Under the pieces are notes generated by a model, which did not search any database, was not told where the DNA came from, and saw only the letters and a program-made list of their open reading frames with translations. Below, piece after piece: positions 2,791 to 5,796 of a stretch of 64,000 nucleotides of DNA. The translations under genes and the position numbers were made by a program. The stretch's first letter is position 1. Each line of letters opens with the position of its first letter. Source of the stretch: Methylobacterium sp. J-088 (lineage in GTDB: Bacteria; Pseudomonadota; Alphaproteobacteria; Rhizobiales; Beijerinckiaceae); the NCBI RefSeq assembly GCF_022829295.1, contig NZ_JAKSYH010000260.1, positions 62,001 to 126,000 of the forward strand. The letters are read 5' to 3'.

Positions 2791-2952
2791 GGCGGCTCGG
2801 GCTGCGGGCGTGACAACCCCGTCTTACGCCCGCCGGCCGGTGCGGGAAAGTACGGGCCCGTAAAGCCCAGATTTCGGGAGGACAAACGGGCGCAGGCGCG
2901 GGGCTTCACAAGCCGCCTCGCACCGCCTACCTTCCGTTCATCCGCAACCAAC

Positions 2953-2969
2953 GAAAGGAGGTGATCCAG
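2953..2969 (+). promoter_or_regulatory. Extended 17-nt Shine-Dalgarno sequence
   Basis: The sequence GAAAGGAGGTGATCCAG is the exact reverse complement of the conserved end of alphaproteobacterial 16S rRNA (CTGGATCACCTCCTTTC). Its last G is the first base of the GTG start codon at 2969. An ordinary ribosome-binding site matches 4-7 of these bases, so this is exceptional. Very strong pairing of this kind usually slows initiation. It is the defining mark of the rreB-type tiny genes reported in alphaproteobacteria. Confidence 0.85.
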
Positions 2970-3040
2970 TGTCTCATTGTCATCAGCCGTGTGTCTCGGC
3001 TCATCGGACCTGGACCGTCGCCTCCGGCGTGTCGTTCTAA
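2969..3040 (+). CDS. Tiny 23-codon gene with extended SD (rreB/rreR-like)
   Basis: A GTG codon fused to the 17-nt Shine-Dalgarno opens a 23-codon frame ending in TAA at 3038-3040. The peptide begins (V)SHCHQPC and is rich in His, Cys and Ser. A strong hairpin terminator follows 60 nt later, so the unit would give a transcript of about 190 nt. A weak CTTCAC-17 nt-CTACCT box pair lies just upstream of 2940. This matches the architecture of rreB (Bradyrhizobiaceae) and rreR (Rhodobacterales), described as short mRNAs with GTG starts whose stability and weak translation are set by ribosome binding. The peptide function is unknown, and homology was judged by architecture, not alignment. Confidence 0.7.
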   Translation: MSHCHQPCVSAHRTWTVASGVSF

Positions 3041-3099
3041 GACGCGCTAGAGACCCGATCATCGGGACAGTTCCGCCGGACGACATGGTTCGGCAATGG

Positions 3100-3134
3100 A
3101 AGGGCCACCCTCGCGGGTGGCCCTTCGGCTTTTC
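3100..3134 (+). terminator. Rho-independent terminator of the tiny gene
   Basis: An 11-bp perfect stem (3100-3110 with 3115-3125) closes on the tetraloop TCGC and is followed by CGGCTTTTC. It lies 60 nt after the stop codon of the tiny gene and just before the convergent coiled-coil gene, whose stop codon starts at 3140. Confidence 0.85.
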
Positions 3135-3139
3135 AGGGC

Positions 3140-3706
3140 TCAGCGCTTCTGCATCTGGAACAGCGGCTGGGCCAAAGCTTCGGTCCGGGCACGCCACACG
3201 TCGCGCTCCTCCCGCAGGGCGTCACGCTCGGCCATCAGGGCGGAACGCTCGCCCGCGGCCCGCTCGCGCTCAGCCTGCGTCGCTGCGCGCTCGGTCTTGA
3301 AGCGCTCGCGCTCCGCGCGGATCTCCGCCTGTTCCGCCCGCAGATCGTCGAGGGAGCCGATCTCGTCCTGGATATGCGCGCGCAGGGTGCGGATCTCCTC
3401 GGCGAGGAGCGCCTGCAGCTGGTCCTGGTGCTCGGCCTCCAGGCGGAGCTTGGCCTTCAGCATCAGGTTCTCGGCCATCAGCTCGGAGATGTCGGCATCC
3501 TCGGTCTCGGCTGCCTGCGACGGCCCAGCGGGCGCCACGACCCGCGGCGACCACGCGGTCTCGGCGGCACCGGGGCCGGCCTTCTGGTCCGGGCGCGCTG
3601 CGTCAGCCGGGCTGTGGGTCTTCATCGCCGAGAGCCAGTCCCGAAGCGGCCCGGGCGCGGGGCGGCCGCTGGACTCGGGCGGCAGGGAGCGGGCGGGTTC
3701 CGACAT
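3140..3706 (-). CDS. Coiled-coil protein of unknown function
   Basis: I place the start at the ATG at 3706 (MSEPARSLPPES), which has AGGAC about nine bases upstream. The longer open frame to 3901 has no coding character there. The 188-aa product has a Pro/Ala-rich first third (residues 1-75). From about residue 78 to 175 it is a nearly continuous charged heptad region rich in Glu, Arg and Ala, predicted to form a long coiled coil. There is no signal peptide or membrane segment. It may be a structural or scaffolding protein, but no family is recognised. Confidence 0.65.
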   Translation of the reverse strand: MSEPARSLPPESSGRPAPGPLRDWLSAMKTHSPADAARPDQKAGPGAAETAWSPRVVAPAGPSQAAETEDADISELMAENLMLKAKLRLEAEHQDQLQALLAEEIRTLRAHIQDEIGSLDDLRAEQAEIRAERERFKTERAATQAERERAAGERSALMAERDALREERDVWRARTEALAQPLFQMQKR

Positions 3707-3984
3707 GGGGCGGCGTCCTGAACGAATTCGCCTCGTAGACAATCGGAACATGCTTAACGATCGGTAAAGGTGGCAGTGGCCACGACGGGAGCCGCAACCC
3801 GGAAATTGACTTTCCGCGCCATCGCGGCTACGCCACGCGCTCCCGATCCTTCGCAGATCGACCGATGCCAAGCCGACCGGTCCCGTGAGACCGGAGGTCA
3901 ACGCCCGACAGCGCGTGTGCGCCCTCGGGCGCGATAGGTGTTGGCCGATGTGCGGTGACGGGATCCGCCGGCCGAGGCACCCCC

Positions 3985-4218: not shown

Positions 4219-5796
4219 ATGTTCGAAGGCCTGTCCGATCGCCTCTCCGGCATCCTCTCGGGGCTCACCCGCCGCGGTGCGCTCACCGAGGCCGACGTCA
4301 CCGCCGCCATGCGCGAGGTGCGCCGTGCCCTGCTGGAGGCCGACGTCGCCCTCGAAGTGGTGCGCGGCTTCACCGACAAGGTGAAGGAAAAGGCGGTCGG
4401 CGCCGTCGTGCTCAAATCGGTGACGCCCGGCCAGATGGTCGTGAAGATCGTCAACGACGAGCTGGTGGCGATGCTCGGTACCGATGCCGAGACCGTCGAC
4501 CTCAACGCCCCCGCCCCGGTGCCGATCCTGATGGTCGGCCTGCAGGGCTCGGGCAAGACCACCACCACCGCCAAGATCGCCCGGCGCCTCTCCGATCGCG
4601 AGAAGCGCAAGGTGCTGCTCGCCTCCCTCGACACGCGCCGCCCAGCCGCGATGGAGCAGCTCGCGGTGCTGGCCAAGCAGGTCGGCGTCGAGAGCCTACC
4701 GATCGTGGCCGGTCAGTCCGCGGTGCAGATCGCCAAGCGCGCCATGGAGGCGGCCCGACTCGGCGGCTTCGACGTGGTCATGCTCGACACCGCCGGCCGC
4801 ACCACCGTGGACGAGGCCCTGATGGCCGAGGCCGCCGAGGTGAAGGCCGCGACGCGGCCCCACGAGGTGCTGCTGGTCGCCGACGCGCTCACCGGCCAGG
4901 ACGCGGTCAACACCGCTCGGGCCTTCGACGAGCGGCTGGGTGTCACCGGCATCGTACTGACCCGGATGGACGGCGATTCTCGCGGCGGCGCGGCGCTCTC
5001 CATGCGCGCCGTCACCGGCAAGCCGATCAAGCTCGTCGGCGTCGGCGAGAAGGTCGACGCGCTCGAGGAGTTCCACCCGTCCCGCGTCGCCAACCGCATC
5101 CTCGGCATGGGCGACATCGTCTCGCTGGTCGAGAAGGCGGCCGAGACCATCGACCACGAGCAGGCGCTCCGCACCGCGGAGAAGATGCGCAAGGGCAAGT
5201 TCGATCTCGAAGACCTGTCCATGCAGCTCGCCCAGATGGAGAAGATGGGCGGCATCGGCGGCCTGATGGGTATGCTGCCCGGGATGGGCGCGATCAAGAA
5301 GCAGGTCGAGGGCGCCAACCTCGACGAGAAGATGTTCAAGCGCCAGCGGGCGATCATCTCGTCCATGACTCCGCAGGAGCGCAAGAACCCCGATCTGCTC
5401 AAGAACAGCCGCAAGAAGCGCATCGCGGCGGGCTCGGGCGTCGACGTCTCGGAGATCAACAAGCTCCTGAAGATGCACCGGACCATGGCCGACATGATGA
5501 AGGCGATGGGCTCCGGAAAACGCGGGATCGGGCAGGCGCTCGGCTCGATGTTCGGGCTCGGTGGTGGCGGGATGGGCGGTGGCGGGATGGGCGGCGGCAT
5601 GCCCGGCCTGCCCCCCGGCATGCCGGAGCCGACGCCGGAGCAGATCGCCCAGATCGAGAAGCAGTTCGGCGGCAAGCTGCCGCCGATGCCGCCGGGCCTC
5701 GGCGGGGGCGGCATGCCCAAGATGCCGGGGCTTCCGGGCCTGGGCGGTCCGAAGCTGCCGGGTCTCGGTGGGTTCATGCCTGGGAAGAAGAAATGA
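4219..5796 (+). CDS. ffh: Signal recognition particle protein Ffh (SRP54)
   Basis: This 525-aa GTPase binds signal sequences of nascent membrane proteins together with SRP RNA and delivers them to FtsY. The N domain occupies residues 1-90. The G domain has the P-loop GLQGSGKTTTT at 108-118, then DTRRPAA, DTAGR and TRMDGD motifs. The M domain follows from about 300 with the RKNPDLLKNSRKKRIAAGSG segment that binds 4.5S RNA. The last 75 residues form a Gly/Met/Pro-rich tail, longer than in many homologues but common in Methylobacterium. The stop overlaps the next start (ATGA). Confidence 0.97.
   Translation: MFEGLSDRLSGILSGLTRRGALTEADVTAAMREVRRALLEADVALEVVRGFTDKVKEKAVGAVVLKSVTPGQMVVKIVNDELVAMLGTDAETVDLNAPAPVPILMVGLQGSGKTTTTAKIARRLSDREKRKVLLASLDTRRPAAMEQLAVLAKQVGVESLPIVAGQSAVQIAKRAMEAARLGGFDVVMLDTAGRTTVDEALMAEAAEVKAATRPHEVLLVADALTGQDAVNTARAFDERLGVTGIVLTRMDGDSRGGAALSMRAVTGKPIKLVGVGEKVDALEEFHPSRVANRILGMGDIVSLVEKAAETIDHEQALRTAEKMRKGKFDLEDLSMQLAQMEKMGGIGGLMGMLPGMGAIKKQVEGANLDEKMFKRQRAIISSMTPQERKNPDLLKNSRKKRIAAGSGVDVSEINKLLKMHRTMADMMKAMGSGKRGIGQALGSMFGLGGGGMGGGGMGGGMPGLPPGMPEPTPEQIAQIEKQFGGKLPPMPPGLGGGGMPKMPGLPGLGGPKLPGLGGFMPGKKK

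Follow-up and report, generated by a model that had tools for sequence, protein, structure and literature searches.

What is a frame of 23 codons for when its ribosome-binding site is complementary to the 3' end of the 16S rRNA over 17 bases: its peptide, its RNA, or the passage of the ribosome? The locus lies in a 64,000-nucleotide stretch of DNA from Methylobacterium sp. J-088, analysed as a whole (the window). A reading made from the sequence only had taken it to be a Methylobacterium counterpart of rreB and rreR. In genes of that type, at least 16 nucleotides complementary to the 16S 3' end are fused to the start codon, and expression is regulated at the ribosome, with 30S co-sedimentation. 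The product is 14 residues long for rreB (Bradyrhizobium) and 18 for rreR (Rhodobacterales). The rreB gene of Bradyrhizobium was reportedly described by Hahn et al. in 2017, with a 17-nt Shine-Dalgarno sequence (SD), a fused GTG and a small frame.

The locus and its family

The extended SD, the fused start and the 23-codon frame are found in the sequence where the sequence-only reading had placed them (Table 1). The SD, GAAAGGAGGTGATCCAG, is complementary to the 16S 3' tail without a mismatch and occupies exactly positions 2953-2969 of the forward strand. Its last G (2969) doubles as the first base of the GTG codon (2969-2971), and the frame runs through 23 codons to a TAA stop. Downstream, a 12-bp stem (GAAGGGCCACCC with GGGTGGCCCTTC, 3099-3110 and 3115-3126) closes a TCGC loop and is followed by GGC and TTTT. 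This hairpin had been called a strong terminator: the stem stands up, but the T tract is short, and a simple terminator scan, requiring five T in eight, missed 3099-3133. A sigma-70 consensus scan upstream of the SD called no promoter. With its length taken from the candidate promoter and the hairpin, the element is probably a free-standing small structured mRNA of ~190 nt.

Table 1. Coordinates of the features of the element in the window
Feature	Position	Strand	Evidence
Candidate promoter: CTTCAC and CTACCTTC	2904-2909 and 2927-2934	+	Among the best-conserved blocks upstream of the SD, 82 distinct same-genus sequences
Rfam RF01867 CC2171 match, whole model (1-159)	2945-3124	+	88.5 bits, cut-off 75, E 7e-17
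Extended SD, 17 nt	2953-2969	+	Complement of the 16S tail from two same-genus genomes
23-codon frame (MSHCHQPCVSAHRTWTVASGVSF)	2969-3040	+	Open in relatives, amino acids little conserved
CATTGTC, 5' arm of the long-range helix of the Rfam model, codons 3-5	2975-2981	+	Rfam structure line; paired cells 98.3%, 49 sequences
Near-copy in cis of the 16S tail: CTGGA (3010-3014), CCG bulge, TCGCCTCC (3018-3025)	3010-3025	+	Minimum-free-energy fold, pair counts
GGCAATG, 3' arm of the long-range helix	3092-3098	+	Rfam structure line; paired cells 98.3%, 49 sequences
Terminator-like hairpin, 12 bp (3099-3126), with TTTT (3130-3133)	3099-3133	+	Stem found in sequence and fold

All 17 SD bases are complementary to CTGGATCACCTCCTTTC, read at the 16S 3' end of two same-genus genomes, and the element thereby has the rreB/rreR-type arrangement, with 17 nt fused to the start codon. 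The tail ...GCGGCTGGATCACCTCCTTTCTAAGG was read beside an Rfam 16S match in one same-genus genome, and the 40-base end in two. It was not found in the other six of the eight genomes searched, the window's own draft among them, so that the evidence for a match between the SD and the 16S of its own genome comes from close relatives. Paired with the 16S tail, the SD yields -35.0 kcal/mol. The 6.4-Mb genome holds a single copy of the 17-mer (reversed pattern: none). In the sequences listed, no part of the element varies less than the SD.

The sequence-only reading overlooked that the element already exists as an Rfam sRNA family, RF01867 (CC2171, a Caulobacter sRNA). The window matches this model over its full length at 88.5 bits and holds a single copy for the whole genome. 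It shares with the family the SD, the terminator-proximal CAAUGGA and the long-range helix CAUUGUC/GRCAAUG, here CATTGTC with GGCAATG. The model differs in being typed as an sRNA, with the frame outside it, and its structure line has only a 2-bp GG/CC mini-hairpin, without the SD pairing described below. The Rfam 15 paper counts RF01867 among the families for which covariation improved the structure (PMC11701678). A 215-nt stretch is listed for Mesorhizobium MH_s33, annotated as RF01867 (PMC5596092); the length is taken to be the RNA-seq extent, and the entry speaks for expression in a relative.

RF01867 matches all 99 sampled genomes of the genus, 97 of them above cut-off. In the class, 96 of 385 genomes match at E <=0.01 and just 14 exceed the cut-off. 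Of these 385 genomes, 49 contain SD+GTG when up to one mismatch is allowed (reversed pattern: none among the matches listed). A comparison of the two lists places 46 of the 49 at CC2171 matches, the exceptions being G105, G128 and G131. Of 259 genomes sampled from the order, 130 carry AAAGGAGGTGATCCNNTGTC, one mismatch being allowed. In a sample of the phylum, the exact pattern occurs in 34 of 249 genomes, and in none of the 182 Pseudomonadota sampled outside the class (a split counted from the listing). A scan of named genomes gave at least 119 stretches; the 80 listed are alphaproteobacterial by title, three being merely "Proteobacteria bacterium". Among these 80, the five Bradyrhizobium loci (L358, L368, L372, L376, L394) all have a 14-codon frame, and the 12 loci with a VSR/VSG...LE start, which belong to Rhodobacterales whenever the title names a lineage, all have 18 codons; these are the lengths of rreB and rreR.

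One 14-codon and one 18-codon locus match RF01867 at E 1e-5 to 2e-5, below the 75-bit cut-off, which bears out the proposed kinship with rreB/rreR-type genes. The scores below cut-off are 43.2 bits for Defluviimonas (L359), 41.7 and 28.3 (E 0.043) for two Bradyrhizobium loci (L358, L368), 41.4 for Sphingomonas (L321), 33.8 for Mesorhizobium (L322) and 30.6 (E 0.012) for Falsirhodobacter (L377), while Brevundimonas (L382, 86.1 bits) and Methylobacterium (L365, 89.9 bits) exceed it. Weak matches alone are no proof, since a control outside the alphaproteobacteria, Deinobacterium chartae, also matches below cut-off. The element has the 17-nt SD, fused GTG and small frame of rreB, which differs by its 14 codons and another peptide. 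With rreR it shares SD, start and a hairpin of the SD 3' half with the start; rreR has 18 codons, another peptide and a partner segment nearer the start. As its product has 23 residues, instead of 14 or 18, the Methylobacterium element is assigned to the same wider family and not to rreB or rreR proper. The Rfam CC2171 sRNA and the genes of rreB and rreR lengths thus appear, by sequence, to form one alphaproteobacterial family. No paper stating this was found in the open-licence literature searched, which is weak evidence of novelty. A more distant parallel is rpsU in Flavobacteriales, which carries an extended SD (PMC9976891), likewise upstream of a ribosome-tied gene, there a ribosomal-protein gene in another phylum.

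Some members depart from the common form. Two same-genus genomes have a second, diverged copy on a short contig, L100 (G400) and L142 (G398), and these copies resemble members of other families more closely. Two same-genus loci, L128 (G399) and L144 (G461), keep the SD, GTG and SHCH codons with a downstream part unlike the rest (~40 and 43 bits). The same extended SD also precedes a frame of ~55-59 codons, small-secreted-protein-like with a signal-peptide-like start, in L035, L155, L156 and L389 (Azospirillum sp. B21).

Predicted pairing between the SD and an in-frame near-copy of the 16S tail

The minimum-free-energy fold pairs positions 2957-2969 with 3010-3025, CUGGA-ccg-UCGCCUCC, inside the frame. 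This segment is a near-copy of the 16S tail CUGGAUCACCUCC: 12 of 13 bases are identical, one base is changed, and an insert of one codon's length interrupts it. The energy of the fold, -92.6 kcal/mol (z -5.17), counts the terminator hairpin in, and the unpaired probability of each SD base from 2957 to 2969 is 0.01-0.08. At least 10 of the 13 tail bases recur in 31 of 49 aligned CC2171-type sequences. In these 49, 93.3% of cells are paired over both helices (13 pairs and the Rfam helix), against 32-49% in slid controls; this register, that of the minimum-energy fold, replaced an earlier one (columns 11-12/66-67, 91.9%) after the counts had been seen. The paired percentage was reached in none of 500 shuffles, the covariation score in 90. 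As to the long-range helix in the genus, all five sequences with C at 2980 have G at 3093.

For the 18-codon group (L405 and the duplicate L311 left out of the alignment), 167 of 168 cells are paired between UCCAGUGU and AUAUUGGA-like segments, against 38-49% in slid controls; 168 of 500 shuffles match that percentage. Shuffles reach these scores, here and in the 49-sequence alignment, because the SD side is near-invariant. With so little room for variation in the SD itself, the spacer base has to supply any two-sided change. A clean case is offered by one GTDB family of 24 sequences (pattern present in 24 of 75 genomes). There the spacer pair is A-U in seven, U-A in nine, U-G in seven and C-G in one, thus paired in 24/24. 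All 168 cells are paired (slid controls 27-72%), and neither paired percentage nor covariation score is equalled in any of 500 shuffles, relatedness inflating such tests. Given the near-invariance of the SD side, the two-sided evidence is mainly one base pair in one family with related members. At the level of sequence, these comparisons show that the SD 3' half and the start codon can pair with the in-frame near-copy, and that compensatory and wobble changes keep the pairing. The sequence has both marks of a cis anti-SD element, an SD predicted to pair within the same RNA and compensatory change.

The register of the near-copy differs among lineages; in the Bradyrhizobium fold the SD partners are UCACCUC and CGCUG. 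Across the class, with one sequence taken per family, 50 of 70 families bury the UGAUCC-N-start stretch more deeply than their shuffles do (Wilcoxon p 9e-6); for GGAGG itself there is no such excess (40 of 70, p 0.23). Single folds were no more stable than shuffles in L382 (z -0.5) and L321 (z -0.3); z was -1.4 in L365. When the spacer is set against the base before GGATC, by genera or single class loci, A-T is found in 12 of 19 cases, G-C/T in 11 of 11, T-A in five of seven and C-G in one of four; the misses include f188, f114, f16 and L174 of f195. In permutations across lineages, the own spacer beat the permuted ones (0/5000, 0/20,000 and 0/10,000), weakly so in the ATG group alone (975/20,000). 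These tests are confounded and not relied upon, as mock controls also scored: reversed, z -3.1; complement without reversal, z -4.1 and -4.9, 0/10,000.

As to sampling, the 0/5000 permutation used 46 "family" representatives, six families being split in two. The complement-mock permutation and the 70-family burial test left out class loci missing from the family table. The pairing tests leave out the longer or unlike frames L035, L038, L049, L155 and L156 (for the order set also L299), and L127 and L143, which have no SD, were dropped.

Many families of type B carry a conserved late motif that on inspection resembles a local hairpin. This motif, GGRGCARCCT, had been considered as a 16S near-copy and was dropped, its stem pairs changing in L281, L282, L239 and L246 (by inspection). 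In these four and in other type B loci, a GGAG-CARC-CUCC-like stem-loop stands late in the frame, once with a GAAA loop.

When the near-copy is blocked, the predicted fold pairs the SD with CAUUGUCAUC directly after the start instead, and the Brevundimonas fold does likewise. This pairing is a candidate second masking state. To note, CAUUGUCAUC (2975-2984, forward strand) is also the complement of GGUGA..CAGUG in the SD, and its possible partners are the SD and the 3' arm at 3092-3098.

An open frame with little constraint on the peptide in the genus

The element might be a plain small-protein gene of the rreB/rreR kind, with a peptide under selection and a long SD that controls its dose. The sequence-only reading had named loss of the frame with the SD kept as the outcome that would speak against a gene; instead, the first 14 codons are free of stops in all 271 sequences, while each other frame is interrupted there in 101 and open in 170. 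The near-copy respects the frame as well. Under a strict pattern its distances from the start are 29, 35, 38, 41 and 44, all 2 mod 3, and under a looser one the three frames hold 111, 11 and 2 of 124 sequences, the 13 outside the common frame being mostly from type B families. Peptides also look well conserved among the 14-aa products of Bradyrhizobium and among the 18-aa products of the LE group and of most MSHG loci, to be set beside pN/pS figures that cover the Methylobacterium genus alone.

Those figures argue the other way. The synonymous versus non-synonymous comparison that had been proposed revealed little peptide-level constraint in the genus: pN/pS is 0.87 overall, 0.93 in codons 2-7, 0.95 in codons 8-13, 1.82 in codons 14-20 (the TW..ASG stretch) and 1.09 in codons 21-23 (computed on the 56 sequences whose 23-aa frame includes a Trp, 43 of them distinct). 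In 75 aligned same-genus sequences, a table that omits the divergent copies L100, L128, L142 and L144, identity is at least 93%, third positions included, over 2955-2989, 3009-3014, 3021-3028 and 3087-3103 (except 3093, G/A), and positions 2990-2996 and 3001-3006 vary. In the conserved stretches synonymous change is about as scarce as non-synonymous change. Furthermore, the type B motif occurs in all three frames (in 44, 5 and 3 sequences), and N-termini and lengths change with the lineage, from 14 to 59 residues. Selection on the peptide is therefore a doubtful account of the element. Conservation in the genus is, by these counts, at the RNA level, and the frame nonetheless stays open. A pN/pS near 0.9 without early stops suggests an RNA that is translated and whose peptide sequence hardly matters: the passage of the ribosome seems to count, and the amino acids hardly, at least in Methylobacterium.

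The His/Cys-rich character of the product, which had been suggested to sense metal, fares no better and is rejected: SHCH is present in eight and SHC in 19 of the 80 named loci among the matches listed, and the SHCH bases lie in an RNA helix.

Trans-acting anti-SD sRNAs exist in alphaproteobacteria. The element could be such a non-coding RNA, its SD titrating 30S subunits or its CCUCC/CUGGAUC arm binding the SDs of other mRNAs, with translation incidental. The constancy of the SD and the anti-SD-like nature of the near-copy would suit this role, which we hold to be unlikely: the frame is kept open, the near-copy is mostly in register, and in one family it co-varies with the spacer of its own SD, needless for action in trans. 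The Rfam search of the window also found no other anti-SD sRNA family, the families above cut-off being CC2171 and ffh only. The latter is the RF01793 'ffh' sRNA motif (3887-3939, forward strand, 61.9 bits), with the ffh gene lying downstream at 4219-5796. A leader or attenuator of the next gene, whose shape of leader peptide and terminator the locus has, is rejected as highly improbable: that gene (3140-3706) sits on the opposite strand and the flanking genes change, the Rieske and coiled-coil neighbours each being found at 20 of 30 same-genus loci, at one of 59 class loci (L008, itself same-genus; some places counted twice), and at three (Rieske) and one (coiled-coil) of the 80 named loci listed.

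A proposed self-masked mRNA opened by the 30S subunit

The best reading, which we consider probable, is that of a small mRNA that masks itself and is opened by 30S binding. At rest, the near-copy would mask the ribosome-binding site in cis. An incoming 30S subunit would open the site, its own 16S tail displacing the near-copy (17-18 bp, -35 kcal/mol), and the long SD/16S duplex would then keep the 30S on the RNA. Translation of ~20 codons would pass through the near-copy itself. Ribosome binding or translation, rather than the peptide, may set the stability or availability of the RNA; if so, its likely role is to report or to buffer free 30S subunits. That the site is masked in vivo, that the 30S displaces the near-copy, that free 30S is sensed or buffered, and what output follows are steps that we infer from sequence. 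A stronger form of the proposal, possible and held tentatively, would make the element a dedicated alphaproteobacterial sensor of free 30S, switching when free 16S tails outcompete the internal copy, the peptide being dispensable and the passage of the ribosome being the signal.

The RNA family is already known to Rfam, and what deserves testing is its internal near-copy of the 16S tail; the capacity of this near-copy to fold back on the SD and the conservation at the RNA level are new to us. Three things filed separately, an Rfam sRNA, rreB and rreR, are apparently one class-wide family, whose small frame cautions against a plain reading as a conserved peptide. The near-copy offers a reason for the extension of the SD, and makes the old question of the function of this RNA addressable by compensatory mutations.
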